NCBI GenBank assembly: GCA_001871195.1
Contig: MNXA01000018.1
Location: forward strand, 1-57,376
DNA length: 57,376 nucleotides
Reading direction: 5' to 3'
Origin: Zetaproteobacteria bacterium CG1_02_55_237
GTDB taxonomy: Bacteria > Pseudomonadota > Zetaproteobacteria > Mariprofundales > Mariprofundaceae
The position numbers and the translations under genes are program-made. Each line of letters starts with the position of its first letter. The first letter of the stretch is position 1. Shown in pieces: positions 3,005 through 46,909 of the stretch. The notes beneath the pieces are model-generated. The model worked only from the letters and a program-made list of their open reading frames with translations. It did no database searches and was not told where the DNA came from.

Positions 3005-4165
3005 TTAAGGGGCCGCATCTTTCATTATTTTCCCGCAAAAATCCACCAGATTCGCAGCCATATTGCCGCCGGCATCGTCACACAGTTTCCTGCACCAGAG
3101 ATCGGCATGCTTTTCCAACCTGTCCTGCGCCCCGGCAAAATCGGGCCATGCCTCACTTGCCCCTTCTCCATGGTTCCATGCTTCCCAGAACAGCCGCAGC
3201 ACCTCTGCATCAGCCGGTTCAAACCCTGCGCTATACAAACCAAGGAATGCCTCCAGTTTCAGCCAGTGTGCCATCTCATCCTGGGGATAAATTTGCCAGA
3301 CCATCGGCTTTGCCGCCCACCCGGCGCGAATCAGCGAATCCTCACCGCGCACGAAGTTCACATCGCACAGCCACAGCAGCTCGTCGTAACGATCCTGAGC
3401 TACAAACGGCAACACGCGCACTTCAAGGCTGCCACGCCGGAAAATATCGCCCGCAGTGGCAGGCTCCTGCAACCACGCGGACACCTGCGGCAACGCCCTG
3501 CCCTCGGGAACCAGACAGACTATCCTGCGCTGGCCTGCTGCCCAGCCGTTAAGCAGCGACGGGATATTGTTGTTTTCATAGCAAAACAGAGACACCTTCA
3601 AGGCTTCCGGATGCGGGGCTTCCATGCCCAAAGCTGCCCAGAACCCGTCTTGTGCTGATCTGTCGGCGCGCAAGGCATCACGGCGGGCCAGTAAACCGGA
3701 TTCGCGCAGCAGACCACCGGTTTCAGACGCAAACCCCGGAAAAAAGAAATACCTGACCATATCCAGCCCCGGCTGTGGAGACGGCAGGCCGTGACAGCCG
3801 CCGACCCATGCCTCGGCACTCAGGTATTCGAGATTGATCCATACAGGCCTGGGCTGACGCTGCGACATCGCCGCCAGATAAGTAGGCGGTAATGCACAAC
3901 CGAAGCCTTCGATAACGACAGCGGCAGATTCCACGACCGGGAAAGGACTAAGCCAACGGCGAATTTCGACACCCCGACAATGCTGTGCATCAAGCTGCGG
4001 GTCTGCTGCGGGATGCAGGCGTGCAAAGCTATGCAAATCGTCCACCCACAGACGGACAGCGATGCCGTCTTCGCCGGCAAGCTGGCGGGCCAAACGCCAG
4101 CACACGCCGATATCGCCGTAGTTGTCCACAACGTTGCAAAAAATATCCCAGCACTTTGGCTTCAT
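3005..4165 (-). CDS. earP: EF-P arginine rhamnosyltransferase EarP
   Basis: EarP is an inverting GT-B glycosyltransferase that moves rhamnose from dTDP-L-rhamnose onto Arg32 of EF-P. The frame runs well upstream, but the start at 4165 is chosen because it opens with MKPKCWDIFCNVVDNYGDIG, the conserved family N-terminus; 386 residues is the usual length. Asp14 and Asp18 correspond to the conserved Asp pair near the active site, and FVRGEDSLIRAGWA is the conserved nucleotide-sugar segment near the C-terminus. It precedes efp in a two-gene operon, opposite rmlC-rmlD, which make its donor sugar. Confidence 0.95.
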   Translation of the reverse strand: MKPKCWDIFCNVVDNYGDIGVCWRLARQLAGEDGIAVRLWVDDLHSFARLHPAADPQLDAQHCRGVEIRRWLSPFPVVESAAVVIEGFGCALPPTYLAAMSQRQPRPVWINLEYLSAEAWVGGCHGLPSPQPGLDMVRYFFFPGFASETGGLLRESGLLARRDALRADRSAQDGFWAALGMEAPHPEALKVSLFCYENNNIPSLLNGWAAGQRRIVCLVPEGRALPQVSAWLQEPATAGDIFRRGSLEVRVLPFVAQDRYDELLWLCDVNFVRGEDSLIRAGWAAKPMVWQIYPQDEMAHWLKLEAFLGLYSAGFEPADAEVLRLFWEAWNHGEGASEAWPDFAGAQDRLEKHADLWCRKLCDDAGGNMAANLVDFCGKIMKDAAP

Positions 4166-4375
4166 GTCAGTCCCGCTGAACGGCATGCGCGGATGCTCGC
4201 ATGAAATGCCCTGTCGCCACAGTCCGGACAATCCACAATGCCCATGCAGGTAATTGCACAACATCCCCGATTGCATCATTCTACGGAAACACAGATTGCC
4301 CAAGGACGGAGATGGGAAGGCACGCAACATGACGGCGATTCCGGACGTGTGAACCCATCCTTGGCGGAGGATTTC
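4166..4375. promoter_or_regulatory. Divergent intergenic region, earP-efp / ppk2
   Basis: These 210 bases separate the start of earP (leftward) from ppk2 (rightward) and must hold both promoters. I see only a weak candidate for ppk2: TTGCAC, a 17-base spacer and CATTCT. A GGAGG ribosome binding site at 4366-4370 fixes the ppk2 start. Confidence 0.35.
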
Positions 4376-5194
4376 ATGACAGTTCAGGCAAAAGAAGAAA
4401 AGCAAGCCAGGCAGGATGAAAAAATAAGCTCGAAAGATTATGAGAAAGCCCTTGCAGACATGTACATCGAGTTGGTCAAGTGGCAGCACTGGATCAAGGA
4501 TAAAGGGCTGCGCGTCGTAATTATTTTCGAGGGTCGGGATGCGGCCGGCAAGGGTGGTACCATCAAGCGCCTGATGGAGCCCCTCAACCCTCGTGGATGC
4601 AATGTGGTTGCCCTGCCTGCCCCCTCGAATAGGGAAACGACCCAGTGGTATTTTCAGCGCTATGTGCCGCATTTGCCGGCAGCCGGAGAGATTACTGTAT
4701 TTGATCGCAGCTGGTACAACCGTGCCGGTGTTGAGCGCGTGATGAGCTTCTGCACCGACAAGGAATACCGCGAATTCATGCGTTCATGCCCGGAATTCGA
4801 GCGTATGCTGGTACGTTCCGGCATCATCCTTCTGAAATACTGGTTCTCGGTCAGCGATGAAGAACAGGAGCGCCGTTTCCAGAAGCGCGCATCAGACAAA
4901 ACCAAGCACTGGAAGCTCAGCCCGATGGATCTGGAATCCCGTGATCGCTGGATGGAGTATTCCAGAGCCAAGGATGAGATGTTCTTCTACACGGATATCG
5001 AGGAAGCACCCTGGTATGTGGTGCATGCGGATGACAAGAAGCGCTCACGTCTCAACTGCCTGAGCCATATTCTTGGAGCCATCCCCTATGAGGATGTCAT
5101 GCCCGCACCCGAACCGCTTCGTCCAAGAAAGGAACAACCCGATTACAAGCGACCGGATATCAACGATCAGAATTTTGTTCCGGACAAGTATTGA
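4376..5194 (+). CDS. ppk2: Polyphosphate kinase 2 (PPK2), class I type
   Basis: PPK2 enzymes move phosphate between polyphosphate and nucleotides; class I members mainly phosphorylate nucleoside diphosphates. The 272-residue protein starts at 4376 after a strong GGAGG. It carries the Walker A-like EGRDAAGKGGTIKR and the Walker B/lid region FDRSWYNRAGVERVM, followed by the arginine-rich lid (EERRFQKRASD), all typical of one-domain PPK2. The C-terminal tail PDYKRPDINDQ is also familiar from the family. It is monocistronic, ending before a terminator at 5251-5274. Direction and nucleotide preference cannot be fixed from sequence. Confidence 0.92.
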   Translation: MTVQAKEEKQARQDEKISSKDYEKALADMYIELVKWQHWIKDKGLRVVIIFEGRDAAGKGGTIKRLMEPLNPRGCNVVALPAPSNRETTQWYFQRYVPHLPAAGEITVFDRSWYNRAGVERVMSFCTDKEYREFMRSCPEFERMLVRSGIILLKYWFSVSDEEQERRFQKRASDKTKHWKLSPMDLESRDRWMEYSRAKDEMFFYTDIEEAPWYVVHADDKKRSRLNCLSHILGAIPYEDVMPAPEPLRPRKEQPDYKRPDINDQNFVPDKY

Positions 5195-31958: not shown

Positions 31959-32285
31959 TCAATCCCAAGCGGATGAATTCAGGTATTGATGTGTGTTCCG
32001 CGTGCGCTTTTTCTCCGTATCAAGCCATTGCAGCTTCTCACTGATTTCACACATTTCTCTTCTGATTTCCCGCTGGATACGGCGCACCTGCTGTTCAAGG
32101 CTTTTCACTGTTTCCTGATCGTTAACATCAGGGCAGCCTGCCTCCATATCCTGCCGGAGTTGAGAGAATGCCTTGTTGAATACTTCTTCAGACTTCGCAA
32201 GCGATGTCCAGCGCTTCGATCTTACCAGCAGGCGAAGGCCTTCAAGAGCCTGCACGCATCCGGAGATACTCTGCTGTACAGGCAT
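31959..32285 (-). CDS. Small helical protein, FliT-like by position
   Basis: A 108-residue, highly charged, helical protein with a likely coiled coil (VKSLEQQVRRIQREIRREM). Sequence alone does not identify it. Its ATG overlaps the fliS stop by one base (TAATG), and it follows fliD-fliS, where fliT, the FliD chaperone, is usually found; size and helicity also fit FliT. I call it FliT-like on context only. Confidence 0.65.
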   Translation of the reverse strand: MPVQQSISGCVQALEGLRLLVRSKRWTSLAKSEEVFNKAFSQLRQDMEAGCPDVNDQETVKSLEQQVRRIQREIRREMCEISEKLQWLDTEKKRTRNTHQYLNSSAWD

Positions 32286-32686
32286 TAACCTGCTGCCCGC
32301 TGCGAAACCCTTTGCTCAACGCGGGGAGCATCGGCAAGCTGCTGCCAACCATCGCGTAGCGTCTGGGCAAGGGATAACACCTCGCGAATAGCAGAGGCAC
32401 TATCCCGGGCCTGACCTTCCAGCAGACGACGACTCATATAGGCATAAAGGCTGGCCAGGCTGGCAGCAATTTTACCGCCCGCTTCCATATTCAAACTGGT
32501 GGAAAGCTCAATAAGCGCCTCTATCGCACGGGAAAGGTGATCGGCTTCGGCCGCCATGTCTTTTGCTTCTTCTGCAGCCTGAGCTTTTGCCAATGCCTTG
32601 ATCAGGGCATCATAGGTAAGCCGAACCAGCTCAAGCGGTCCTGCGCCATCAACCTGTAAACCCCGGTATGATTTATATCCTGTCAT
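32285..32686 (-). CDS. fliS: Flagellin export chaperone FliS
   Basis: FliS binds the C-terminus of flagellin in the cytoplasm and keeps it unfolded for export. The 133-residue helical protein has the family pattern GPLELVRLTYDALIKALAKA and AIEALIELSTSLNMEAGGKIAASLASLYAYMSRRLLEG. It follows fliD by 9 bases and is translationally coupled to the FliT-like gene. Confidence 0.93.
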   Translation of the reverse strand: MTGYKSYRGLQVDGAGPLELVRLTYDALIKALAKAQAAEEAKDMAAEADHLSRAIEALIELSTSLNMEAGGKIAASLASLYAYMSRRLLEGQARDSASAIREVLSLAQTLRDGWQQLADAPRVEQRVSQRAAG

Positions 32687-32695
32687 GACATTCTC

Positions 32696-35059
32696 CTATC
32701 GTCTAAGGGATGAAAACTGGTTGGTTTGCTGTGTCAGCCAGGAACTGGTGGAATTCAACCGCCCCATCAGTGTCTCCATGGACTTGAATGAGGCCGTCAT
32801 CCGCGCGCGTTCCTGTTCAATACGCATATTAATATTATCAATCCGGGTTTGCAGGCTGTCGTAGTTCGTTTGTGCTGCATCAACGGAGTTCTGGATCAGA
32901 CCGGATATGGGATTGGTAAATGTATCCAGCAGACCATTGAGCTGGGCGCCAATACCCATGCTGACCGACATACTGCCAATGCTGCCGATAGCCGAAGCGG
33001 TATACATCATCACCAGGCCATCCACATTCCCGGCAGTGCCGGTCAGAATCTGGCCAACTCCCGTTGCTGTTTCTCCACCGATTGTGCCGGCTACGTCCAG
33101 ACCGCTATAGGCTTGATCGATGATGCCCAGGTTGTTTGCCGACTGAGCAATCGTCAGGCTGGAAGAAGAGCCGTAGGCATTGTTCTGGAGCTGAAGGAAA
33201 TTTCCGGAGGCCGCGGCGGAGACATCCATGGCATAGCGCCCCTGGGTAAGAATGGCCTCGGTGCCGAAAGCGAGGGTTCCACCACCTTCATTGTTGGCAG
33301 TCAATGTGAAGCTAAGACTACTGTCACCCGACTTGTTATCGGTAATAGTTACCTTGCCGGCACTATCAATGCTGGCTGTCACCTTCTGGTCAAAAGCCAC
33401 CTGGATGCCGGAAACCAGATCCGCAAGCGTATCAGTCAGCGGATTAAGCACCGTAAAGGTGTAATTCACCGCAGTGCCGGATGGCTTTGTTCCGCTGATG
33501 GTAATGCTGTCATTTGCTGCCACACCCAGTGCCAGCGCACTAAAGGTACTTGCGGATGTTGCCGGCGGGCCACCTGCGGTAAGTGCCGTGTTCATCTGCC
33601 GCTGTTCCGTATAAACCTGAGAAAACTCGGTGTTGAGCGCCGATACAATGCTGGAAAGGCTCTGGGCATTGGTCAGATTCACAACAGCCTGGCGACTGGC
33701 GCTATCGGTGATGGTAATGGTCTCGGCACCGCCAAGTCCCAAAGACAAATCTGTTGTTCCGGTAACACTGGCCTGAGACGCAGCCTGCGTGATATTCACT
33801 GCATAATTTCCTGAAACAGTACCTGTGCCATAAGTGATGTATTGCAGGGCGGTATTGCTACTCGTCGCTGTCGCGGAAAAGACATCCCTGACCGCCGTTG
33901 GATCGGTGGCAAGCCAATTATCCAGCGTTGCGCTGTCAATATTCAGATGGCCGGCCGAATCAGGTGACACCCCTGCCAGAACCATATTGTTACGGTCACC
34001 GGCCAGGCCGGGGATGGTTTGCAGAACGCTGGAGCTAAGCTGCGACTGTATTGTGCGAACCATACTGTCGCTTGCCAGAATCCCAGTGGTTTGTGTATTG
34101 GTATCAAACTTCATCTGAGCATTGATGAAATCCATGATCGCGTTGTAGCCATCTACAAAATCCTGCACCTTGGCCTTAATGCCTGCCTGATCGATAGATG
34201 TGGAGACCGTAATGGTCGTGGCCGGATCCGCTTGCGCCAGATTGAGTGTAAAGCCATAAAGAGCATCCGTGACCGTGTTGGTTTCACGCGTCAGGGCAAT
34301 ATTATCAACGGTGATGTTTGCATCTGCTGCAGCCTGCAGACTCTGCCGCGCATTTCCCTGGGCCACTGCACCCATTTGCAGATTAGCCAGATTGCCGACC
34401 GCATCCAGTGCGGGACCGCTCAACAGCACATTGCCCTGGGTGGTGCCGGTATTGTCCGCTGTCAAAATAAGCCGGTAATCACTTGTTCCAACCTTCAGGA
34501 TACTGGCTGTAACGCCAGTGGCGTTCGCCCCTGTATTCAACTGATTAATCTTGTCCCGGATAGCCTGTAATGAGTCCGTGCTTGCAACATTCACGGTCTG
34601 GGCCGAACTGGCCTTTCCCTGAATGGTGAAGCTGTCTGTCGTATAACCCAAAGCCACCGTATCACTGGTTATGGCTGTTCCCGTGGAATCTTTCACAGCG
34701 GAGCTGGAGCCCAGCTTCTCAGCTGCAGCCAATTGCGTTACTACAATCGTATGTGAGCCTGTTGTCGCCGCGGAATCCGGCGTTACGGATAGCAGATCAC
34801 CAGGGGCTGTTGCGCTATTGCTGGATAGCGTCGATTGATTAAGCAGGAATTTGCTGCTGTCGGCCAGATCAATGCCTGTCGATCGCAGTGAAGATAAAGC
34901 GCTACCCAAGCTGTTGATGGCACTTTGCTTGTCCAATTCAGTCTGTTGGCGATTCTGCAGCAAAGTAGCCTTGCGTCCTTCCACCGCCATAAGCTGATCG
35001 ACAATATTGGCCCAATCGATGCCCGAAGACAGGCCGGAAATATTCGTTGTTCCAGGCAT
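32696..35059 (-). CDS. fliD: Flagellar filament cap protein FliD, unusually long
   Basis: FliD caps the filament and folds incoming flagellin. The N-terminus MPGTTNISGLSSGIDWANIV and the C-terminal coiled coil (DNINMRIEQERARMTASF, ending TSSWLTQQTNQFSSLRR) are standard. At 787 residues it is far longer than the usual 450-500. The extra 250 or so residues, roughly 400-660, are Ser/Thr/Gly-rich and contain flagellin-like segments such as TITDSASRQAVVNLTNAQSL, so they may form additional surface domains. The ATG directly abuts the flaG stop. Confidence 0.93.
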   Translation of the reverse strand: MPGTTNISGLSSGIDWANIVDQLMAVEGRKATLLQNRQQTELDKQSAINSLGSALSSLRSTGIDLADSSKFLLNQSTLSSNSATAPGDLLSVTPDSAATTGSHTIVVTQLAAAEKLGSSSAVKDSTGTAITSDTVALGYTTDSFTIQGKASSAQTVNVASTDSLQAIRDKINQLNTGANATGVTASILKVGTSDYRLILTADNTGTTQGNVLLSGPALDAVGNLANLQMGAVAQGNARQSLQAAADANITVDNIALTRETNTVTDALYGFTLNLAQADPATTITVSTSIDQAGIKAKVQDFVDGYNAIMDFINAQMKFDTNTQTTGILASDSMVRTIQSQLSSSVLQTIPGLAGDRNNMVLAGVSPDSAGHLNIDSATLDNWLATDPTAVRDVFSATATSSNTALQYITYGTGTVSGNYAVNITQAASQASVTGTTDLSLGLGGAETITITDSASRQAVVNLTNAQSLSSIVSALNTEFSQVYTEQRQMNTALTAGGPPATSASTFSALALGVAANDSITISGTKPSGTAVNYTFTVLNPLTDTLADLVSGIQVAFDQKVTASIDSAGKVTITDNKSGDSSLSFTLTANNEGGGTLAFGTEAILTQGRYAMDVSAAASGNFLQLQNNAYGSSSSLTIAQSANNLGIIDQAYSGLDVAGTIGGETATGVGQILTGTAGNVDGLVMMYTASAIGSIGSMSVSMGIGAQLNGLLDTFTNPISGLIQNSVDAAQTNYDSLQTRIDNINMRIEQERARMTASFKSMETLMGRLNSTSSWLTQQTNQFSSLRR

Positions 35060-35425
35060 CTATGCCTGCCGATCCAAGAGTATGCCCACCATTTCCTTCA
35101 TCGCCACCTTTTGGTCAATAACGGCCTTGGGGGGAATCTCCTTTACCACTGCCCCGGTAGCCTTATCCTTGATTTGCACGAACAACTGGTTCAGACGCTT
35201 CTCATAAGTAAAGCCAACGCCTTCAGTCGCAACCTGCTGATTAACATGTTCCAGAGCCTTTTTTAGTTGCTCCTCGCTAACCACCGGATCCTGTTTTGAT
35301 TCCGGCTTCACTGCTTTCTCAACACTTTTCACAACAGGATGCGGCTCACTTTGTCCCGACTTTGCCTGTCTGGTTGCCACTGCTGGTATGGCTACGGACG
35401 GAGGAATACTACTGATGCTTTCCAT
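35060..35425 (-). CDS. flaG: FlaG-family protein
   Basis: The 121-residue protein has a variable N-terminus and a conserved C-terminal FlaG domain: GFTYEKRLNQLFVQIKDKAT and VVKEIPPKAVIDQKVAM. FlaG influences filament length in some bacteria. A strong AAGGAGG precedes the start. It lies between fliC and fliD, its usual place. Confidence 0.92.
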   Translation of the reverse strand: MESISSIPPSVAIPAVATRQAKSGQSEPHPVVKSVEKAVKPESKQDPVVSEEQLKKALEHVNQQVATEGVGFTYEKRLNQLFVQIKDKATGAVVKEIPPKAVIDQKVAMKEMVGILLDRQA

Positions 35426-35552: not shown

Positions 35553-36722
35553 TTAACGGAACAGTGACAGTACGTTCTGGGACGACTGGTTGGCCTGAGC
35601 CAACATAGCCGTACCTGCCTGTACCAGAACCTGAGACTTCGTGAAGTTCGCCATTTCGGCAGCCATATCGGCATCCTTAATGGTCGAAATTGCGGAGCTC
35701 AGCTGCTCGATGTTGGTGGACAGGTTGGCATTGACATATCCAAGCTGATTCACCGTGGAACCAAGAGCGGCACGGTTGGTGGTCAAGGTGTTGAGTGCAG
35801 CAGTTACCTCAGTCAGGTAGGTCTGGGCATTTGCTGCGGTGGAAATATCTGCAGTGACGGTGCCAATAGCCAAACCGGATGTGGTATAGTTACTGGTGAA
35901 GTCAGCTGCCACCTGATTGTTGGCACCATTTTCAGCACCAACCTGGAAGGTGCTGGATGCGCCTGCAGTGGTGATGATGGTACCTGCAGATGCTGCAGAA
36001 CCAGTAGCAGCGGTGGTCTTGCCAGCGATTGCAGAGTTGATGGTCAGGCTGATGCCGAGGTCTCCAAAGGCAATGACTGACGTGTTCTGGCCCGTTGGCA
36101 GGGATGCGATTGCGACAGTCTGGGTGGTGGTGCCATCCGTAATGCTAATGGAGTCACCGGCGTTGAATGTGGTGGCTGTAGCCTGATCCACATAAGTGAC
36201 ACTGAATGTGGCACCTGCAGTTGCGCCGTTGAGAGTGATAGCACTCACACCATTGGTCGTTGTGTTATCCAGTGTGCTGGCTGCATCCACAGTTGAGCCA
36301 GACGTACCATTCAACAGTGCAACACCATTGTACTTGGTGCTGTTGGCAATCTTGTCAATCTGAGACACGAGTGTACCGCGCTCGGCATCCAGTTTGGCAA
36401 TATCACCCGAGTTGTTCGCACTTGCTGCCTGGGTGGCCAGCACCTGCAAACGACGGACCATGTTCTCGATCTCGTTAACGCCGGCATCAGCCGTCTTCAC
36501 CATAGCGGTAGCCTGCAGAGCATTCTGACTGGCTGCCTCAAGTTTACCGCGTTCACCGGTCAGCTTGGCGGAAACGGCATAGCCTGCCGCATCATCTGCT
36601 GCCGAGTTAATACGGAAACCGGAAGACAAGCGTTCCAGAGACTTGTTCATGTTCGTGGTATTGGTGTTCAGGTTCTTCAGGGCTGTCAGTGCCCCCATAT
36701 TAGTTTGTACAGTTACTGCCAT
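35553..36722 (-). CDS. fliC: Flagellin
   Basis: The start at 36722 follows AAGGAGAG and opens with MAVTVQTNMGALTALKNLN; the product is 389 residues. The conserved N-terminal helices (to about 140) include LERLSSGFRINSAADDAAGY, and the C-terminal helices include ADMAAEMANFTKSQVLVQAG and end in NVLSLFR. The middle (about 145-310) is a Thr/Ala/Gly-rich variable domain with many Ser/Thr, the likely target of the adjoining glycosyltransferases. A sigma-28-like promoter lies upstream at 36830-36856. It is the only flagellin in the window. Confidence 0.96.
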   Translation of the reverse strand: MAVTVQTNMGALTALKNLNTNTTNMNKSLERLSSGFRINSAADDAAGYAVSAKLTGERGKLEAASQNALQATAMVKTADAGVNEIENMVRRLQVLATQAASANNSGDIAKLDAERGTLVSQIDKIANSTKYNGVALLNGTSGSTVDAASTLDNTTTNGVSAITLNGATAGATFSVTYVDQATATTFNAGDSISITDGTTTQTVAIASLPTGQNTSVIAFGDLGISLTINSAIAGKTTAATGSAASAGTIITTAGASSTFQVGAENGANNQVAADFTSNYTTSGLAIGTVTADISTAANAQTYLTEVTAALNTLTTNRAALGSTVNQLGYVNANLSTNIEQLSSAISTIKDADMAAEMANFTKSQVLVQAGTAMLAQANQSSQNVLSLFR

Positions 36723-36829
36723 TTTATCTCTCCTTAGGTTGTTGGTATTGCGCGAACGACGTCCCTGCCTTGCCACGCTCGGGCTTCATGCCCAAATCGA
36801 GTCGCTTCCTTGCGACCCTGTGAAATAAC
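36723..36829 (-). promoter_or_regulatory. Long structured leader of fliC mRNA
   Basis: If transcription starts just after the sigma-28-like -10 box, the leader is about 100 bases. It contains GTCGC-loop-GCGAC (36801-36816) and GGGC-loop-GCCC (36781-36793) stem-loops before the AAGGAGAG ribosome binding site. Such leaders can control flagellin translation or mRNA stability. Confidence 0.45.
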
Positions 36830-36907: not shown

Positions 36908-38962
36908 TCATGCTTCAGATTCGCAGAACTCCGGCCATATGCTGCGATAGACATCCTCCAGCGCATGCGTTGTCGCGCTCCTGTCACACAGTGATGATGC
37001 AGCCAGCGCTTGCCTCAGACGGGCACGCAATTCGATCAGCTTCTCCGGATCGGCCGCCAGCTGCAGGGCCAATGAGATATATTCCTGCTTGTTACCTGCT
37101 ATCCATTCCTGCCTGCCGGCACTCTCCAACAAACTCAGACCGACACGTCCGGCATGCGTCTTACCCTTGAGGCAAACAACAGGCACGCCCATCCACAGCG
37201 CTTCGCATGTTGTTGTCGTGCCGTTATAAGGGAAGGTGTCCAGAGCGATATCCACTTGGGAGTAGCAACTCAGGTGCTCACCCACGCTGGCCGACCAATC
37301 CAGAATATTGATGCGATCTCCGGCCACGCCATTTTCCTCGAACATTTGCAGATAGCGCTCACGCACCTTGGCGTCCTGCAGGGAGATATGCTTGAGCACG
37401 AGATGCGATCCCGGCAACTGTTGCAGTACTTGTGACCACACTTCAACCACCTCCGGTGTCACCTTGCTCAGATGATTGAAGCAACCAAAACTGATGTGAC
37501 CGTTTTTCGCATACGGCAAGGGAGCAGGCTGAGGGGCATCGGCAGAAGGAGTATAACAAAGGAAACCGCCCGGCAGGCGCAACAGCTTCTCACTGTGACA
37601 GCGCTCCTGCCCAATGGGGTCGGCCCATTCATCTGTAAGACGGTAATCCATCGCAGTCATACCTGTGCTGGCCGGGTAACCAATATAGGTCACCTGTACG
37701 GGAGCCGGCTTGCGCGCAAATACCATCAGGCGGTGATGGCTGGTATGGCCGGCCAGATCAACCAGAATATCAATGCCTTCCTGCCTGACTGTCTCCGCCA
37801 CGGCTTCATCGCTGCATGTCGATATATCCAGCCATTTATCCGTATAGCCTTTCAACCTTGCAGTCACCGCATCCGGCCTGCTCACATCCGAGAAACAGTA
37901 AATCTCGAAACAGCTGTGGTCATGAGCAACCAGTATCGGCTCAATGAAGTAGGCCACGGAATGCTCCCTGAAATCCGGCGACATATAGCCAATACGAATC
38001 TTCCTCTCAGGACCGGCATCATGGCTGCCGCCTTTATATAGTGCCTGAAAACCCGCGGCGTGCATGTTGTCCCACTGCAGATGCTCCTCATATACCGCCT
38101 GCGAATCCGCCATATCGTAGAGCATTGAGAACAACAGATTCGAATGGGCGCGCATATAATCCGGCTTCAAATGCAATGCCTTTCTGTATGCATATCTTGC
38201 CTCATCAAGACGGCCCTGATCGCGCAGGTCATTGCCCAGATTGTTCCATGCTTCGGGATAGTCCGGATTCAGCTCCAAACATCGACGGTGATGGTGTTCC
38301 GCTTCTGATATCAGGCCACGCACATGCAGTGCATTGCCAAGATGAAAGTTGGCATCTGCATTCATCGGCTCAATACATAACAATTGGCGAAAGCATTGCT
38401 CTGCTTCCTCATGCCGCTGTTGCCCGGCCAGCACCAGGCCAAGACCAAAAATAAACTGGGGCATCATTGCCCCCTGTGACAAACCTTCACGAAAGCAGAT
38501 CTCAGACTCGCTCAAAGCCCCTTGCCGGCGCAGCAAATATGCCAGACTGAGTCGTGCGTTAAGGTGTTGCGGATTCCACGTCAGGACTTGCCGATACAGT
38601 CGGGCGGCCTGTTCAAGCTCCCCCTCGCTTTTCAGCAGATTGGCCAGATTGCATGTCACCTCTGCATCCTTGGGAACAAGCTCCAGATATTGTTCAAAAC
38701 ATACCCGAGCCTCATGCATGCGGCCCTGCCGTCGCAAAAGAGAACCGAGCGTATTGAGAAAACCCACCTCTGCAGGGCTGGCTTGCAAAGCCCGGCGTAT
38801 CAGTCTCTCCGCCTCGTTCAAATCGCCCTGCTGCATGGCTATGACGCCTGTCAGATGAAGCGCATGAGCATGTTCTGCCTGTTGGGCCAGAATCGACTTA
38901 CAGACGACTCTGGCTGCATCCAGCCTGCCGGCCTGATAGTGGTTTACTGCTTCTGAAAACAA
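36908..38962 (-). CDS. TPR-containing GT41 (O-GlcNAc-transferase-like) glycosyltransferase
   Basis: The N-terminal half (about 1-310) consists of TPR units, for example GRLDAARVVCKSILAQQAEH and GDLNEAERLIRRALQASPAE; the C-terminal half (about 320-680) is the SPINDLY/OGT catalytic domain with IRIGYMSPDFREHSVAYF, LVDLAGHTSHHRLMVFARKP, VQVTYIGYPASTGM, FGCFNHLSKVTPEV and DTFPYNGTTTTCEALWMG. The start at 38962 is TTG (FSEAVNHYQAG), chosen because GGAGG lies 6 bases before it; an in-frame ATG at 38992 lacks a ribosome binding site. It sits directly upstream of fliC on the same strand, so flagellin is the likely acceptor, as in other bacteria with OGT-like genes beside flagellin. Confidence 0.9.
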   Translation of the reverse strand: MFSEAVNHYQAGRLDAARVVCKSILAQQAEHAHALHLTGVIAMQQGDLNEAERLIRRALQASPAEVGFLNTLGSLLRRQGRMHEARVCFEQYLELVPKDAEVTCNLANLLKSEGELEQAARLYRQVLTWNPQHLNARLSLAYLLRRQGALSESEICFREGLSQGAMMPQFIFGLGLVLAGQQRHEEAEQCFRQLLCIEPMNADANFHLGNALHVRGLISEAEHHHRRCLELNPDYPEAWNNLGNDLRDQGRLDEARYAYRKALHLKPDYMRAHSNLLFSMLYDMADSQAVYEEHLQWDNMHAAGFQALYKGGSHDAGPERKIRIGYMSPDFREHSVAYFIEPILVAHDHSCFEIYCFSDVSRPDAVTARLKGYTDKWLDISTCSDEAVAETVRQEGIDILVDLAGHTSHHRLMVFARKPAPVQVTYIGYPASTGMTAMDYRLTDEWADPIGQERCHSEKLLRLPGGFLCYTPSADAPQPAPLPYAKNGHISFGCFNHLSKVTPEVVEVWSQVLQQLPGSHLVLKHISLQDAKVRERYLQMFEENGVAGDRINILDWSASVGEHLSCYSQVDIALDTFPYNGTTTTCEALWMGVPVVCLKGKTHAGRVGLSLLESAGRQEWIAGNKQEYISLALQLAADPEKLIELRARLRQALAASSLCDRSATTHALEDVYRSIWPEFCESEA

Positions 38963-39221
38963 TCCAGGCCTCCGACAAAAACGAATCAACATCGCACACA
39001 GTTATTTGCCCGTTTGGATTTCCAGACCGGGCAAACCACTGGGCGAAACAACAACTAGCAAGATTCAGTCCAGAAACCCGGAAAGCAGCGCTGGATTATC
39101 ACGGCGAAAAAATGGCCCTTTTCTTGCTCCCAATTTGCTGTCTCTTGCGTGGAGGCAACACAAAACGAGAGAGGAGCCCGGTTATCTACTTACAGCAATC
39201 GTTCCGGAGAACTGCCAGCAA
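38963..39221. promoter_or_regulatory. Divergent intergenic region between TPR-GT41 and TPR-SGNH genes
   Basis: About 260 bases separate the two divergent genes. It holds an inverted repeat TTGCCCG (39006-39012) / CGGGCAA (39028-39034), a possible operator or stem-loop. I see no clear promoter pair and no small gene I can support. Confidence 0.35.
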
Positions 39222-40880
39222 ATGAAAGCAGACCTGCTACAACAGGCGATTTCTCATCACCAGGCTGGAGAGCTGCAACAAGCAGTCCCCATCTATCAGC
39301 AAATTCTGGTGAAGGAGCCGGACCATGCCGATGCCAACCATCTTCTCGGCCTGCTTGCCCACCAGTTGGGAGATCATGAGACCGCCGCACAACTGGTATC
39401 AAAAGCGATAGAAAAAAATCCGGCTCAGACTCTCTATTTCTGTAACCTGGGTATTATCAGAATGGCATTGCAGCAATGGGATAATGCAATCTCTGCTTTT
39501 CATGCGGCGCTCCAATCCAGCCACGGGGATGGCAAGACCTATAGCAATCTTGGTCTTTCTCTGGAGAAAACCGGCCGCTGCGACGAAGCAATCTCGGCCT
39601 ACCAGAATGCTCTCTCTTTAAATCCGGGCGACACGGAAACCTTGAACAGGTTGGGCAATGTATATTCACAGCTGAAAAGGCTGGAAGAAGCGACCGCCAC
39701 CTATCAGCGCGCCCTGGATATCAACCCATCCAGCCTGGCAACACTTAATAATCTGGGCATCGCATTAAAAGATAACGGCATGTTGGATGAATCCATCATC
39801 GCCTACCGGCGCGCCGTGAGCATCAGCCCAGAGCGGGTTGAAATCATGTGTAATCTGGCCATGGCGCTCCTGGATACAGGGCAACTTCGGGAAGCTGAAA
39901 CCATCTGTCAGCAGGCCTTGTCATACAACCCCGCATACGCGGCAACCTATAAACAATTATTCGATGCGCTGCATTTTCAACAGCGCACAGCAGATTGGGA
40001 TGCCATGCTGGACACAGCCTTGCATCAGGCAAGCTTATCGGCAAACGAGCGAAATCATTTGCTGATTTCAAGGGCGATTATTGCCTGGATACATGGCGAT
40101 TTGAATGCGTGCGAGAGCCATCAGACAATGGCAAAAGCGATATTGGATTGCCCCCCTACTGATAAGGTGACGTACAGCGCGCTGGGCTACTACAAGTTCC
40201 TGCAAGCCTTGTTGATATTCAGACAGGAACACCCATCCTTATATGCTCAATCTGCTGAAGAGACCCTGCATATCATTGGCGATAGTCATAATCTCTCGTA
40301 TGCAGACACAGTCATCACGCTCAAAGGCATCAGGCATAAGGTCGCTTCCCATCTGATCATGGGTTGCAAAGCCTGGCATCTTGCCCGACCCGGGATGAAC
40401 AGGTTCAAGGCATCGTTTGACTGTGCCTTACAACAACTACCACATGGTGCCACCGCCATCATCTCCATTGGGGAAATCGACTGCCGACACAATGAAGGAA
40501 TTTTTCCAGCCCATAAAAAATATCAGACAGACCTGAAGTCCTCGATTGAATCACTGGTGCATGATTTTGTTCACTATGTCGTGAACAAGACCAGGGAAAT
40601 GGAACTCAAGCTTATCTTTTATGGGGTCCCCGCCCCCCACTGCTCCCTATCCCACCTCTCAAATCATGACAGGCAAACCTTCCTGCAAGTGGTTGAATTA
40701 TTTAATGGCTGCCTAGCCAATGCGGCGCTATCCAGCCATTGCGGATTTATTGATGTCTACGGGCAAACAGTCACAGAGAATGGTCTTGCTGATGGCCGGC
40801 ATCATATTGATGCGTTTCACCTCTCTCCGGATTTCCTTGCTCATGCCTGCCGACAGTCAGGCATGGATGCGGCTATATAA
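39222..40880 (+). CDS. TPR protein with a C-terminal SGNH-like (GDSL) hydrolase/acyltransferase domain
   Basis: The 552-residue protein (start at 39222, MKADLLQQAISHHQAGELQQ) has about nine TPR units to residue 275. The C-terminal region carries SGNH-type blocks: GDSH at 353-356 (nucleophile Ser355), GEIDCR at 417-422 in the place of GxND, and DAFH at 530-533 (catalytic Asp and His). SGNH proteins are esterases or O-acyltransferases, so it may add or remove an acyl group on a glycan. I know no standard name for this architecture. TPR units resemble those of the next gene (HADANHLLGL in both). No signal peptide is seen, so it is probably cytoplasmic. Confidence 0.75.
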   Translation: MKADLLQQAISHHQAGELQQAVPIYQQILVKEPDHADANHLLGLLAHQLGDHETAAQLVSKAIEKNPAQTLYFCNLGIIRMALQQWDNAISAFHAALQSSHGDGKTYSNLGLSLEKTGRCDEAISAYQNALSLNPGDTETLNRLGNVYSQLKRLEEATATYQRALDINPSSLATLNNLGIALKDNGMLDESIIAYRRAVSISPERVEIMCNLAMALLDTGQLREAETICQQALSYNPAYAATYKQLFDALHFQQRTADWDAMLDTALHQASLSANERNHLLISRAIIAWIHGDLNACESHQTMAKAILDCPPTDKVTYSALGYYKFLQALLIFRQEHPSLYAQSAEETLHIIGDSHNLSYADTVITLKGIRHKVASHLIMGCKAWHLARPGMNRFKASFDCALQQLPHGATAIISIGEIDCRHNEGIFPAHKKYQTDLKSSIESLVHDFVHYVVNKTREMELKLIFYGVPAPHCSLSHLSNHDRQTFLQVVELFNGCLANAALSSHCGFIDVYGQTVTENGLADGRHHIDAFHLSPDFLAHACRQSGMDAAI

Positions 40881-40939
40881 ATGACATCCACAGTTCTTGA
40901 ATACAAACAGCCACGCAATCCAACAAGGTGGCCGCAGTA

Positions 40940-42703
40940 ATGAATGCAACATTGCTTCAAAAAGCGACCGCCTGTCATCAAAAGGGAGAGTTGCAGCAGG
41001 CGGCAGAGATCTATCAACAGCTGTTGGAGATGGATTCGGAGCATGCCGATGCCAATCACCTTCTTGGCCTAATAGCACATCAATCCGGCAAGCATGAGCT
41101 CGCAGTCCAACTGATTTTAAAAGCGATCAACAAGAACCCATCGCAGCCCATGTATTACGATAATCTTGCGATTGTTCTCAGGACGATGGGCAAGCTGGAA
41201 GATGCCGCCAACTGCTACCAGCAGGTGGTGCGTATCCAGCCTGAGCATGCCACTGCATATCAGAACCTCGGAAACATCCGTCTGCAACAGGGAAAACTCC
41301 CTGCCGCAGTTGCCGCCTACCAACTGGCCATCCGGATTGCGCCGGATAATGCATGCGCGCTTAACAATCTTGGTGTGGCGTGGTTAAAACAAGGAAATCT
41401 GATCGAGGCGGAAAAGTCGTTCCGCGAGGCCATGCGTGCAAAATCCGATTATGCGGAAGCCTGTAGCAACCTTGGTCTTGCATTGAAAAATCAGGGCAAA
41501 CTGGAAGAGGCTGAAACAGCTCTGAAGCAGGCCCTGACCATGAATCCTGATGATGCAGGCAGCCACTACAATCTTGGTAATGTATTCATGAGCCTCGGGA
41601 AACTCAAAGAGGCCAGAGAAACCTACTCGCAAGCCTTGCAGATCAGACCGGATTACACAGAAGCATTTCGCAGCCTGTCAAACCTGAAACGCTATTCCGA
41701 CATTGATGACGAAACATTAAGGATGGAAGCGCTCTATAACAGCCCGGATATCAGCCATGAGAAGCAGATGCATCTGGGATTTGCCCTGGGTAAAATTTAT
41801 GAAGATGTGGGAGTCCACGAAAAGGCCTTTGCATATCTCATGCAGGCAAACCGTCTGTTCAGGTCCGGCTACAACTATGACCTGGCTGAAGACAAGGCTT
41901 TCTTCGATCTGGTCACAACTATTTTTGACCAGGACTTCATGCAGCAGCATCAGGATTGCGGCAACAGGGATCAAACCCCCATCTTTATCGTCGGCATGCC
42001 CCGGTCCGGCACAAGTCTGGTCGAACAGATTCTTGCCAGTCATCCGCAGGTTTACGGTGCAGGTGAACTGCTCTATCTCAAGCAGGCCATCTTACGGGCT
42101 TGCGGAAACGCCCCCGGATACAACTTCCTGAAGAATATCGAGACATTCAGGCAAGATGACTTCCAACATCTGGGCAGCGCGTATATTGAGAAGTTACGTA
42201 GCCATTCCACAGGCGCCACACACATCACAGATAAATTGCCGCACAACTTCTTCTACCTGGGAATGATCAAGATCATTCTTCCCCGCGCCAGGATCATTCA
42301 CTGTCAGCGGGAGCCACTGGATAACTGCCTGTCTATCTATAAAAACTATTTCAGCGACAGCCAAAGGTATGCCTATCAGCTTGATGAACTGGGAGAATAT
42401 TACCACTTCTATCAGGCACTGATGGAGCACTGGCATCACACCCTGCCCGCCGACAGCATTTATGACATCCAGTATGAAGCTCTGGTGGCAGATCAGGAAA
42501 CCCAGACAAAAGCCCTGTTAAAGCACTGCGCTCTGCCATGGGATGAGCAATGCCTTTCATTCCATAAAACAAACAGGGAAGTAAAAACCGCAAGCGCTGC
42601 ACAGGTTCGGCAACCGGTACACCAGCGCTCTGTTCACCTGTGGAAACGTTATGAAAAGCATCTGCAACCGCTCATCAAATCACTTGCGGGATCAGGAAAC
42701 TGA
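40940..42703 (+). CDS. TPR-sulfotransferase fusion
   Basis: The 587-residue protein (ATG at 40940 after AAGG; a GTG at 40928 is the alternative) has about eight TPR units to residue 255 and a C-terminal PAPS-dependent sulfotransferase domain (about 345-585). The 5'-phosphosulfate loop FIVGMPRSGTSLVEQIL starts near residue 349, and the 3'-phosphate region is REPLDNCLSIYKNYFSD. TKxPHN-type TDKLPHNFFYLG also matches the family. Such fusions resemble TPR sulfotransferases found in marine bacteria. It is on the same strand, 59 bases after the SGNH gene. The acceptor is unknown; a glycan on flagellin is the obvious guess. Confidence 0.85.
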   Translation: MNATLLQKATACHQKGELQQAAEIYQQLLEMDSEHADANHLLGLIAHQSGKHELAVQLILKAINKNPSQPMYYDNLAIVLRTMGKLEDAANCYQQVVRIQPEHATAYQNLGNIRLQQGKLPAAVAAYQLAIRIAPDNACALNNLGVAWLKQGNLIEAEKSFREAMRAKSDYAEACSNLGLALKNQGKLEEAETALKQALTMNPDDAGSHYNLGNVFMSLGKLKEARETYSQALQIRPDYTEAFRSLSNLKRYSDIDDETLRMEALYNSPDISHEKQMHLGFALGKIYEDVGVHEKAFAYLMQANRLFRSGYNYDLAEDKAFFDLVTTIFDQDFMQQHQDCGNRDQTPIFIVGMPRSGTSLVEQILASHPQVYGAGELLYLKQAILRACGNAPGYNFLKNIETFRQDDFQHLGSAYIEKLRSHSTGATHITDKLPHNFFYLGMIKIILPRARIIHCQREPLDNCLSIYKNYFSDSQRYAYQLDELGEYYHFYQALMEHWHHTLPADSIYDIQYEALVADQETQTKALLKHCALPWDEQCLSFHKTNREVKTASAAQVRQPVHQRSVHLWKRYEKHLQPLIKSLAGSGN

Positions 42704-42757
42704 ACCCATGACCTCGTTTTCATTGGCATAGAATCATTATCACTGGAGAACATGTAT

Positions 42758-45700
42758 ATGACATCCACATCAAGCAAAAACATCCAGCAGTTGGCAAACC
42801 GGGCACAGCGTTTTCTGGAAATCGGCGACATTCATCAGGCAGAAATGCTTTGCGACGAAGCGATGAATCAGGGGGCAACAGACCCCGACATGTTATTGCA
42901 AATCGGTAAGGTGCGTTATTTCCGCAAACGCTATGAAGAAGCTGTCGATTTTTTCCAGCAGGTGCTGCAATCACGACCAGAAGATTGTGACGTCCGTATC
43001 ATGTTATGGGCCAGTTATCGGGATGGTGGTGATTTCGAAGGCATGCTGAATCTTGCACATCAGTTCCAGAATAAGCCCCTGAACGCCAATGAAGTCCTGT
43101 TTGCATACCGCAGCTTTCTGGCCGCATGTGACTGGCAAAGTGCGAAAGAAATGCAAGCGCGCGTGTTCAATCTAATCAAAGAGAAAAAAATAAGGTGCGA
43201 TCTCATCCCCGCTCTGCTCATCGAATTGTGTGGCATAAGCGATCTGGCACCGGATCTGGTGCTCGATTTTCATCGCCAATGGGGAGATGAAATGCTCAAA
43301 GGCATCAAGCCATATTTTCCCGTGAACGCTCCTGCGCCTGTGGTCACAGGGCGTTTGAAAATCGCTTATCTATCCTCTGATTTCAAACTGCATCCTGTCG
43401 GTTTTTATATGAACCAGATCCTTCGCTCCCATGACCACGAGCGCTTCGAAGTGTATTGCTATGCTCATCTAGGGCGTGATGACGCAATGACTCAACATAT
43501 TCGGGAGAATGTTGATCACTTTATTGATATTACGGCGCTGACAAATGAAAACGCGGCTGCCCGCATCCATGCCGACGGCATCCATATTCTTATTGATCTC
43601 AACGGACATACCACCGACACACGCCTCCCTGTTCTGGCCTATCGTCCCGCACCTGTGCAAATGACCTACCTCGGCTACCCGAACACGACCGGCCTGGCGA
43701 CAGTGGACTACCGCATCACCGATCATGATGCGGAATGTGAAGAAGGCACCCGATATGTGGAGAAGCTCCTGTATATGCCACAAAGTTTTTTATGCTTTGG
43801 CGTTGATCTGAAAACCGAAGGCACGCACATAGAGGAAGGAGATCACATCACCTTTGCCTCTTTCAACAACATCAGAAAAATAACGCCGGAAGTCATTCAG
43901 GTATGGAGCCGGATTCTCAATCGCGTTCCCGCCTCCACACTTGCGCTTAAAGCCAAGAACCTTGATAACACTGTCGTTAGCAAGAATCTCCTGCATGAAT
44001 TCGCCAAACACGGCATCGAGGCGGAGCGCATAGAGTTTCGTCCCTACACAAGAACCTATGAAGAACACATCATCCAGTACTGCAGTTCCGATATTGCGCT
44101 CGATACCTTCCCGTATAACGGCACCACCACCACCTGCGAAGCATTGGTCATGGGCGTGCCAGTCGTGACCCTTACGGGGAAAACGCATGCGCAGCGTGTC
44201 TCCTGTTCCATCCTGAAAAACATCGGTTTCGAAGAGACAATCACCCATTCCATGGACGCATATGTGGATAAGGCCGTGGCGCTTGCCAGCAACCGCCAGG
44301 GACTCGCGGCGCTGCGCCAGATTCTGCCAACACTGTTCCGGCACTCAATTCTCTGCCAGCCGGAGGATTTCACCCGGCAACTGGAAGACTTATATCTGCA
44401 AGCCTGGCATGAGAAAACAGCTGCCCTTCCTGAGGCCAGTGCAGTTGATACACGATATTCCGAAAGTGAACGTCAGGAAAAACCGAAAGCGACTTGCGGA
44501 AACAACAATCTGAATGATAAAAAGGACATATCCATGACAAGCCCTATCAATCCACGCACGCTTATTGCCGATATTGTCCACCATGATCTGGCCGGCACTC
44601 CCATTATCATTGCAGAAATCGGCGCAAGAATCCTTGATGCGGAAAACAACGTCGGGGAAGCGGAAATATTTCACACCTTGCCTGCCGCCAAGGTGCTTGC
44701 CTTTGAGGCGGACGCTGAGGCATGCGAGCAGATCAATGCCCTGAGTAGTCATTTTGCTGCCGACATCAAAGCCTATCCCTATGCCCTGAGCGACAAGCCG
44801 GGAGAGAAGACACTGTATATCACCCGGGAAAAGATGTGCTCCAGCTTGTATAAACCCAATGAAAAGATGCTGGCGCGATATGCCAATCTCGATTACGCAT
44901 ACCTTGATAAAACCTGCTCTATCGAAGTCACATCGCTGGACCGGTTCATGGAACAGGAAAACATCCCGAACATTGATTTCATCAAAATTGATGTTCAGGG
45001 CGCCGAGCTCGACATCTTCAAAGGCGCATCCAAAGCCATGCCGCAGCTCCTGGGCCTGTGCACTGAAGTGGAATTTGTCGAGCTCTATGAGGGGCAGCCA
45101 CTGTTCGGGGAAATCGATGCGCTGCTGCGAACATATGACCTGCAGTTCTACTGTTTCAGGGATACCGGTAACCGCCCGATTCAGGGGACAGCCTTTCACA
45201 GCAAGCCCCAGCTTCTCTGGGCCGATGCCGTCTATTTCCCGAGTCTGGAAGCCATCGACAGGTTGCCTGCAGAAAAACTGTTAAAGCTCAGTGTGCTGAG
45301 CAGCCTGTATGACGCCTATGACCTCAGCCAATATGCCCTCAAGCGTTTTGATGACATATCCGGCACACATCTCATGGATGATTTCGTCCGCAGACTTACA
45401 GCCCTGGCACAGGGGACGAATACAGAGGGCGACAGCATTCCCGCGGATAAAAAAGTAGTACAGATGGTCAATAAACCGGAAGCGACACGGCAAGACCTAC
45501 AGACAGGCAACGGGAGAAAAGCAGTAAAAATCGAGAATGACATTCTGGTCACAGTCCCGGATGACCTGACGCTCATGACGCCGTATATCCTTGAGGAACA
45601 GCAGGACTGGTTTGAAGACGAAATTGAGTTCGTGCGAAGGCTGATCAGGCCGGGCATGAACGTGATCGACATCGGCGCCAACTATGGTTGTTATGCGCTA

Positions 45701-46909
45701 ACCATTGCCAAGCTGGCAGGTCCCGATGGCAGGCTCTGGGCTTTTGAACCTTGTTCAAGCACAGCCGACCACTTGCAGCAAAGCATCAATGCCAACGGCC
45801 TCGATCAGATTCAACTGATCCGGGCAGCCCTATCCAACCGTCAGGGAGAGGCCTGCCTGTCGACTCAGGACAATGCCGAACTGAATTCTCTTTCCGATGA
45901 CAATGGCGGCACCGACTCGGAGACCGTACCCCTGTATCGGCTCGATGATTGCATGCAAGAACATGCCTGGCATGACATCGAATTCCTCAAGCTGGATGCC
46001 GAAGGTGAGGAAGTGCGCATTCTCGAAGGTGGGCAGGCGTTTTTTACAGACCTGTCGCCACTGGTCATGTTTGAATTAAAACATGGAGACGAGGTCAATG
46101 AAGGCCTGATTCAGGCCTTCCAGAACATGGGTTACTCCCCCTACAAACTAATCCCGGGCCTGATGCTGCTGGCACCATTCGATGTGCAGGAGGAAGCCGA
46201 TCCGTTCCAGTTGAACCTGTTCTGCTGCAAACCGGACCGCGCACAGAAACTGCAGAATCTCGGGCTGCTGCTGCTTGATGAACCCGCCAGCATCGATACG
46301 GCCTGCGATTCAAACATATGGGAAAACTACCTGCATGACTTCCCCTATGCCGCCATCATGTTTTCCACCTGCAGGGGTTCGGCTTCACAACAGCCATTGC
46401 CCGACTGGCCGGAATATCGCGATGCCCTGAATGCATATGTCATGGCGCAGGATACCGAACGCGCACCGGGAGAACGCTATCACCTGCTGCGAACTGCCTT
46501 CATCCAACTCGTATCCGTGCTGGATGCGCATACGAGTCTTCCACGCCTTCTCAGTCTGGCTCGCATCGCCAGTGAGCTTGGCAACCGCGCGCTAGCCGTA
46601 AACATCCTCAATGAGCTAGCCAGGCATTTTGAAGAGAAGCAGCAATTCAATGTCGATGAACCTTTTCTGGCAATCTCCGCCAGAGCCGCCGCCATTGATC
46701 CGAAAGACATGCTGGGAAACTGGTGCCTGGCGCAAATCCTGGCTGAACGCGAAAGACTGCATGCCTTTTCTTCCTATTTCACGGACGCGAGTTCACTGCC
46801 CATACTGGATATTATCGAACGACTGGATTATCCGGATCCTGAAATGGCATTGCGCGGCGATCTCATACGCCAGCGCTTTGGACTGTCCGCCACGGCCCTG
46901 GCCGCATAG
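42758..46909 (+). CDS. Trifunctional TPR-GT41-FkbM-FkbM fusion protein
   Basis: This 1383-residue protein has a short TPR region (to about 120), a GT41 OGT-like domain (about 198-550: LKIAYLSSDFKLHPVGFYMN, LIDLNGHTTDTRLPVLAYRP, DTFPYNGTTTTCEALVMG), a first FkbM methyltransferase (about 593-830: IDFIKIDVQGAELDIFKGA), a second one (about 940-1150: NVIDIGANYGCYALTIAKL, FLKLDAEGEEVRILEGG), and a helical C-terminus of unknown fold. The start at 42758 is chosen because GGAG lies 9 bases before it; ATG at 42752 is possible. The linker before the first FkbM contains an in-frame AAGGA plus ATG (44534), as if two genes had fused. Predicted role: add a sugar and O-methylate it. Confidence 0.85.
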   Translation: MTSTSSKNIQQLANRAQRFLEIGDIHQAEMLCDEAMNQGATDPDMLLQIGKVRYFRKRYEEAVDFFQQVLQSRPEDCDVRIMLWASYRDGGDFEGMLNLAHQFQNKPLNANEVLFAYRSFLAACDWQSAKEMQARVFNLIKEKKIRCDLIPALLIELCGISDLAPDLVLDFHRQWGDEMLKGIKPYFPVNAPAPVVTGRLKIAYLSSDFKLHPVGFYMNQILRSHDHERFEVYCYAHLGRDDAMTQHIRENVDHFIDITALTNENAAARIHADGIHILIDLNGHTTDTRLPVLAYRPAPVQMTYLGYPNTTGLATVDYRITDHDAECEEGTRYVEKLLYMPQSFLCFGVDLKTEGTHIEEGDHITFASFNNIRKITPEVIQVWSRILNRVPASTLALKAKNLDNTVVSKNLLHEFAKHGIEAERIEFRPYTRTYEEHIIQYCSSDIALDTFPYNGTTTTCEALVMGVPVVTLTGKTHAQRVSCSILKNIGFEETITHSMDAYVDKAVALASNRQGLAALRQILPTLFRHSILCQPEDFTRQLEDLYLQAWHEKTAALPEASAVDTRYSESERQEKPKATCGNNNLNDKKDISMTSPINPRTLIADIVHHDLAGTPIIIAEIGARILDAENNVGEAEIFHTLPAAKVLAFEADAEACEQINALSSHFAADIKAYPYALSDKPGEKTLYITREKMCSSLYKPNEKMLARYANLDYAYLDKTCSIEVTSLDRFMEQENIPNIDFIKIDVQGAELDIFKGASKAMPQLLGLCTEVEFVELYEGQPLFGEIDALLRTYDLQFYCFRDTGNRPIQGTAFHSKPQLLWADAVYFPSLEAIDRLPAEKLLKLSVLSSLYDAYDLSQYALKRFDDISGTHLMDDFVRRLTALAQGTNTEGDSIPADKKVVQMVNKPEATRQDLQTGNGRKAVKIENDILVTVPDDLTLMTPYILEEQQDWFEDEIEFVRRLIRPGMNVIDIGANYGCYALTIAKLAGPDGRLWAFEPCSSTADHLQQSINANGLDQIQLIRAALSNRQGEACLSTQDNAELNSLSDDNGGTDSETVPLYRLDDCMQEHAWHDIEFLKLDAEGEEVRILEGGQAFFTDLSPLVMFELKHGDEVNEGLIQAFQNMGYSPYKLIPGLMLLAPFDVQEEADPFQLNLFCCKPDRAQKLQNLGLLLLDEPASIDTACDSNIWENYLHDFPYAAIMFSTCRGSASQQPLPDWPEYRDALNAYVMAQDTERAPGERYHLLRTAFIQLVSVLDAHTSLPRLLSLARIASELGNRALAVNILNELARHFEEKQQFNVDEPFLAISARAAAIDPKDMLGNWCLAQILAERERLHAFSSYFTDASSLPILDIIERLDYPDPEMALRGDLIRQRFGLSATALAA

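Follow-up and report, generated by a model that had tools for sequence, protein, structure and literature searches.

In O-glycosylation it is still unsettled how soluble modification enzymes select the protein they act on; FlmG is one example in which the choice is based on a tetratricopeptide repeat (TPR) domain. The flagellin locus described here raises the same question. It lies on a 57,376-base stretch of DNA (the window), which is an entire contig (G000:C26) of a 2.33-Mb genome from the family Mariprofundaceae (Zetaproteobacteria), its source being a relative of iron oxidisers. Beside fliC stand four large enzyme genes. They encode a TPR protein with a GT41 glycosyltransferase domain (TPR-GT41, or GT41a), a TPR protein with an SGNH-type domain (TPR-SGNH), a TPR-sulfotransferase and a second GT41 protein with two FkbM domains (GT41-FkbM-FkbM, or GT41b). 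We think it probable that they form a cytoplasmic cluster that builds a glycan on flagellin, the GT41, TPR-sulfotransferase and TPR-SGNH proteins all acting on the same protein.

In the mechanism we propose, GT41a would bind FliC through its TPR superhelix before export and attach a sugar at Ser/Thr, in the manner of FlmG from Caulobacter. GT41b would add a sugar or modify sites elsewhere, O-methylation falling to its pair of FkbM domains. The TPR-sulfotransferase and TPR-SGNH, with TPR arrays that would be copies of one module, would be brought to the same protein, the former to sulfate the glycan and the latter to add or remove an acyl group. As read from the sequence, the cluster proteins have no signal peptide at their N-termini, and the donors, a nucleotide sugar, 3'-phosphoadenosine 5'-phosphosulfate (PAPS) and S-adenosylmethionine (SAM), are cytosolic, so that the enzymes are naturally read as working ahead of export.

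Gene layout and placement at fliC

The flagellin gene (35553-36722, minus strand; Flagellin_N 1.5e-30, Flagellin_C 7e-22) encodes the likely acceptor, a protein of about 389 residues. Its ATG at 36722 (MAVTVQTNMGAL, read from the sequence) is the start that fits the family; the longer open reading frame (ORF) given by the ORF tool, with a GTG start at 36776, is unlikely. GT41a (36908-38992, minus strand; Pfam and motifs) has an FlmG-like architecture; an earlier note on this DNA had started it at 38962, where a Leu codon encodes the eleventh residue of the ORF, and the ATG lies at 38992. TPR-SGNH (39222-40880; motifs, an alignment of relatives and a predicted structure), the TPR-sulfotransferase (40940-42703; Sulfotransfer_3 7e-46 and motifs) and GT41b (42752-46909; Pfam GT41, with FkbM in two stretches) are on the plus strand, separated by gaps of about 50-60 bases and followed by an NhaD antiporter gene. 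All four ORFs, with the catalytic classes first assigned to them, were borne out by Pfam and, for SGNH, by relatives and the predicted structure. The four genes are not a single operon or transcription unit, with GT41a and fliC lying on the minus strand and the other three enzyme genes on the plus strand. Composition gives a mixed signal on a possible island origin: the GC content of the SGNH and sulfotransferase genes is about 50% versus 54% for the window, but their third-position GC (GC3) resembles that of fliC.

The case for flagellin as acceptor is carried by placement across the family. We sampled 61 Mariprofundaceae genomes, then extended the sample to all 74 family species available, and scored a GT41 gene as placed at fliC when it lay within 10 kb of the filament flagellin gene. 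Thirteen of the first 61 genomes had GT41, all 13 at fliC, and 19 of their 20 genes were so placed against about 0.2 expected by chance. Across the 74 species, 16 carry a total of 23 GT41 genes, 20 of which lie within 10 kb of fliC; two of the remaining three are on broken contigs and one is beside a Thr-rich adhesin (G009). Among the added carriers, G225 has a GT41-FkbM gene next to fliC, as predicted beforehand, G263 has its gene on a broken contig whose neighbours resemble the fliC locus of relatives (consistent by synteny), and in G244 the gene is at a contig end and cannot be placed. Two genomes (G020 and G049) have three GT41 genes each, all at fliC. One GT41 gene of G066 occupies the interval from fliC to a gene for a 133-residue protein, whereas the orthologous pair in the near relative G069 has no gene between; flanking genes of the two genomes are mostly 79-96% identical, fliC only 70%.

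TPR-SGNH, present in 6 of the 74 genomes, is next to fliC in all five in which it can be placed; the sixth copy is on a 3-kb contig. A search of the family for all four architectures next to fliC, as the earlier note had suggested, found the same four-gene set in the Mariprofundus genome G072, with orthologous TPR-sulfotransferase and TPR-SGNH. Among the genomes covered, this one and that of the window alone have all four genes; Mariprofundus EBB-1 has just GT41-FkbM. The idea that flagellin is the shared target is supported by these counts (20/23 for GT41, 5/5 for TPR-SGNH), by the G066/G069 insertion and by the precedent of Caulobacter crescentus FlmG, which recognises flagellin through its TPR domain and depends on that domain to modify it (PMC7591256). 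We regard the predicted link to flagellin as strongly supported.

Outside the family the tie of GT41 to flagellin is looser. In a sample ranked by similarity, in which many contigs are short, a flagellar filament gene was in the stretch for 20 of the best 80 named GT41 loci, more often when FkbM was fused. A similar set exists outside Zetaproteobacteria in a gammaproteobacterium (WFPC01000025; L132 1-15821), where a sulfotransferase, several GT41 genes and a GT41-FkbM gene surround two fliC genes and fliD.

A TPR module shared within the cluster

The string HADANHLLGL, noticed earlier in both the SGNH and sulfotransferase proteins, belongs to a likeness that extends over 244 residues: from Met1 the two TPR arrays align without gaps at 38% identity (score 438). 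Against the GT41a array the sulfotransferase array scores 337 and the SGNH array 246. Among themselves the three arrays thus span 246-438, compared with 102-155 to other TPR proteins of the genome, including two other TPR-sulfotransferases that score only 143-149 against the sulfotransferase array of the window though their catalytic heads are homologous. Unlike catalytic heads therefore share a front end at this locus. The fourth protein, credited by the earlier note with the same kind of N-terminal array, has two weak, unrelated TPR matches (E about 1e-4), and comparison of its N-terminus with those of the other proteins gives scores of 58-83, so a shared array stands for GT41a, SGNH and sulfotransferase and falls for GT41b.

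That this likeness proves a flagellin address did not hold up. On contig C7 of G009 (L056 3-19998), genes for several TPR-sulfotransferases, a TPR-sulfotransferase-TPR-GT41 protein and a Sulfotransfer_1 enzyme adjoin that of a 2871-residue Thr-rich protein of Ig-like repeats (Big_13/Big_12), likely a parallel system on an adhesin. A TPR array from this contig scores 416 against the SGNH TPR, for which the sulfotransferase of the window itself scores 417. These arrays match equally well yet adjoin an adhesin, and the TPR module is therefore not flagellin-specific by sequence. A ranking by TPR similarity was likewise rejected as proof of an address: with the SGNH TPR as reference, the TPR-sulfotransferases found near fliC come out higher (p 0.007; with GT41a, p 0.11), but the C7 array, the best outsider, ties with them. 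As judged from the arrays, the TPR module is common to the enzymes of one cluster, and sequence alone does not specify flagellin.

Catalytic domains and competing explanations

Both GT41 proteins are recognised by Pfam (1e-58 for GT41a; PF13844, 199 and 233 bits against a cut-off of 25), and FkbM likewise scores far above its cut-off. GT41a has its TPR array up to residue ~285 and the GT41 domain at ~317-690; GT41b has a short divergent N-terminus, GT41 at ~193-562, FkbM1 at ~602-850, FkbM2 at ~912-1160 and a tail at 1161-1385. The catalytic His and Lys are found in both (H344/K510 and H214/K376, respectively). The best-scoring relative of both domains is SPINDLY (3e-101 and 7e-76), a protein O-fucosyltransferase (PMC9715652). 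His344-Ser345, Lys510 and PYNGTTTT (588) are kept in GT41a as in SPINDLY. The equivalents of SPINDLY Lys665, Tyr744 and Thr748 are kept in both proteins and those of His495-Ser496 in GT41a, with Pro at the Ser496 position in GT41b, as in OGT. Given this kinship, the hexosamine named in the earlier note lacks support, and the sugar is possibly fucose-based.

Pathway genes were tried as a guide to the donor and rejected as non-discriminating, since Gmd/GDP-fucose genes and the apsK-gmd linkage occur in genomes with or without GT41. With guanosine diphosphate (GDP)-fucose pathways common across the family, fucose is a lead only. In the genome of the window, genes for adenosine 5'-phosphosulfate (APS) kinase, mannose-1-phosphate guanylyltransferase/isomerase (ManC), Gmd and GDP-L-fucose synthase adjoin one another (G000:C42, ~53247-57442; L208:3248-7443), a group that by its annotation joins PAPS and GDP-fucose supply; the apsK-gmd linkage is seen in several family genomes, also without GT41. 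NeuB was found in this genome and in G049 and is absent from 11 of the 13 GT41-positive genomes, so pseudaminic acid is unlikely to serve all carriers as donor. The nonulosonic acid cluster with NeuB (G000:C17; L174 5957-15432) lies far from fliC, is unshared by most GT41 carriers and, by the initial residues of its ORFs alone, looks legionaminic-like. On G009:C24 (L055 1-5379) the start of fliC, a GT41 gene, ManC and a Sulfotransfer_3-like gene (26.8 bits, cut-off 27) are consecutive, and ManC between fliC-GT41 and the sulfotransferase-like gene is a hint of a GDP-sugar donor. Beside fliC-GT41, ManC was found only in G009, and no sugar-synthesis gene is among the annotated cluster genes.

The TPR-sulfotransferase (Sulfotransfer_3, 157.6 bits; cut-off 27) has the PAPS motifs, a 5'-phosphosulfate-binding (5'-PSB) motif GMPRSGTS (352) and a 3'-phosphate-binding (3'-PB) region (455). 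APS kinase is encoded in the same genome, so PAPS can be made. Sulfotransferases stand beside fliC in seven genomes and in several architectures: TPR-sulfotransferases in G000, G072, G019 and, ~6 kb off, G006; a module within a GT41 protein in G013; a stand-alone Sulfotransfer_1 in G225; and the Sulfotransfer_3-like gene of G009 C24. In a tree of those near fliC the window enzyme pairs with that of G072 (100/99) and G006 with G019 (100/100), the pairs having no reliable join, which indicates that these sulfotransferases are not one recent copy.

Such an enzyme might instead act on flagellin itself, at Tyr or Ser/Thr, with glycosylation and sulfation running in parallel on one target. FliC of the window has about six Tyr, the nearest solved relatives of the sulfotransferase domain are protein-tyrosine sulfotransferases, and G019 and G006 have a TPR-sulfotransferase near fliC without a GT41 gene. 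However, the domain is only weakly similar to the tyrosine enzymes (2e-5), most clearly so near the cofactor site, another type of glycosyltransferase could serve G019 and G006, and the GT41 proteins with fused sulfo- or methyltransferase modules fit sugar tailoring. We consider direct sulfation of flagellin unlikely.

TPR-SGNH consists of TPRs at ~1-245 and an SGNH domain at ~345-545 with GDSH (353), GEIDCR (417) and DxxH (530). The domain of the window protein has no Pfam match of its own, and Lipase_GDSL_2 is weakly matched by four of nine aligned relatives. Modelled alone, it reached a predicted local distance difference test score (pLDDT) of 85 and matched sialate O-acetylesterase (~6e-7), PatB (1e-5) and PAF-acetylhydrolase in the PDB; the full-length model gave TPR matches only, among the matches listed. 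In predicted fold and in its GDS (block I) and DxxH (block V), both of which are present, it resembles these SGNH/GDSL esterases and O-acyltransferases. Unlike them, it has GEID in block III (GE(I/L)D in all relatives, not GxND), a TPR fusion and an apparently cytoplasmic location. From its motifs the protein may act like an SGNH enzyme, yet one outside the described SGNH families.

The lack of the usual block III Asn, in a domain that no family model recognises in the window protein, could also mean that TPR-SGNH has no catalytic activity and that its role is to bind flagellin as a scaffold or competitor. GDSH, GExDxR and DxxH are invariant in nine relatives down to 24% identity, which speaks for catalysis and makes a dead enzyme quite improbable. 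Distant TPR-SGNH homologues of other families (G140, G095 and G077) are away from fliC in the stretches read. On two stretches (L204 6873-10704 and L205 79-3871; another family) such homologues come directly after a large gene, which on L204 encodes a SPOR-domain outer-membrane efflux protein.

Also on the minus strand are flaG (35060-35425; FlaG 9e-18, Pfam), fliD for the filament cap (32696-35059; FliD_C 8e-40, FliD_N 2e-18) and fliS for the flagellin chaperone (32285-32686; FliS 4e-30, Pfam). FliD, with 24% Ser+Thr, is an alternative acceptor; it is always at fliC too, so placement alone cannot separate it from FliC. More broadly, the acceptor could be another secreted Ser/Thr-rich protein, FliD or an adhesin, with fliC a hotspot that gains surface-modification genes, as the similar TPR-sulfotransferase/GT41 cluster adjoining the 2871-residue protein of G009 and the GT41 arrays outside a flagellar context in many other phyla might suggest. 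Against the 20 of 23 family GT41 genes at fliC, among them every copy in both three-GT41 genomes, this explanation has a slim chance. That the cluster modifies lipopolysaccharide or capsule, the TPRs merely scaffolding the enzymes among themselves, would suit the GDP-fucose and legionaminic-like pathways elsewhere in the genome and the occurrence of the apsK-gmd linkage without GT41, but is hardly credible for a cluster without polysaccharide transport, flippase or sugar-synthesis genes, whose fliC placement is far from chance and whose GT41 relatives of known function act on protein.

Several observations nevertheless weigh against a flagellin glycan-building cluster, which remains our preferred reading. 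Besides the GEID block and the equal match of the G009 C7 array, a search for sigma-28 and sigma-54 promoters of the cluster gave none that was convincing. Most TPR-sulfotransferases of the family, two of this genome included, are away from fliC, and G072 (a 92% complete assembly) has no APS kinase or Gmd above cut-off. Flagellin Ser/Thr content and length show no consistent difference between GT41 carriers and others, and were rejected as a flagellin signature.

Known systems and exchange of tailoring modules

GT41a resembles FlmG in its N-terminal TPR and C-terminal GT-B (GT41-type) domain, in being soluble, in its presumed flagellin target and in a genome without Maf (PMC7591256). FlmG differs in needing pseudaminic acid, NeuB being missing in 11/13 of the GT41-positive relatives here, and in having, by its description, neither sulfotransferase nor SGNH partners with matching TPRs nor FkbM fusions (PMC7591256). 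Maf (PF01973) had no match in 59 of the 61 family genomes, this one included; genes of ~680 codons beside fliC in GT41-free relatives, considered as Maf candidates, are RecG by Pfam. Elsewhere in the window (3005-4672, minus strand) lies a gene for EarP, the arginine rhamnosyltransferase for elongation factor P (EF-P), with ~170 extra N-terminal residues.

GT41-methyltransferase fusions were described in 2016 in flagellin glycosylation islands of Enterobacteriaceae (PMC4875605). Those islands likewise have GT41 (SPINDLY domain) with methyltransferase beside flagellin and variable tailoring genes including FkbM, and GT41-FkbM-FkbM starts 6 kb from fliC in the window. They differ in containing sugar-synthesis genes, of which the window cluster has none, and their description mentions no sulfotransferase, TPR or SGNH (PMC4875605). 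The statement that no such system had been described must accordingly be narrowed: GT41-methyltransferase islands at fliC are known, and what stands is that we found no account of TPR-sulfotransferase or TPR-SGNH there. In the open-access literature searched we found nothing joining flagellin and sulfotransferase with TPR or a glycosylation island, nothing on Zetaproteobacteria and flagellin glycosylation, and no TPR-guided sulfotransferase or SGNH protein at fliC with a front end matching a glycosyltransferase. With FlmG and these islands, the sugar and methyl part is known in kind; the sugar step resembles known flagellin systems, and the sulfate and acyl steps most likely do not.

Relatives of the fourth gene are mostly 42-49% identical overall (one 33%), and their C-terminal ends vary by genome. 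Some modules being assigned by motif only, the GT41 domain is followed by FkbM-FkbM (window), FkbM (G057, G063), sulfotransferase-FkbM (G013), a SAM methyltransferase (G072, G020), methyltransferase plus FkbM (G049) or a GT2-like domain (G066, G060, G011). Separate tailoring genes include Sulfotransfer_1 (G225), ManC with the Sulfotransfer_3-like gene (G009) and CmcI-type sugar O-methyltransferases (G057, G011). Tailoring modules are swapped between genomes.

A matching TPR array on three catalytic domains at one locus makes the address hypothesis testable by domain swaps. More tentatively, Mariprofundaceae flagella may bear a sulfated, methylated and acyl-edited O-glycan, built through interchangeable copies of a TPR address on different catalytic heads, its chemistry being changed by swapping heads. 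Archaella are known to bear sulfated glycans; for bacterial flagella sulfation would, to our knowledge, be new if it is real, and a filament charged by sulfate might make a difference to swimming close to iron-oxide surfaces.

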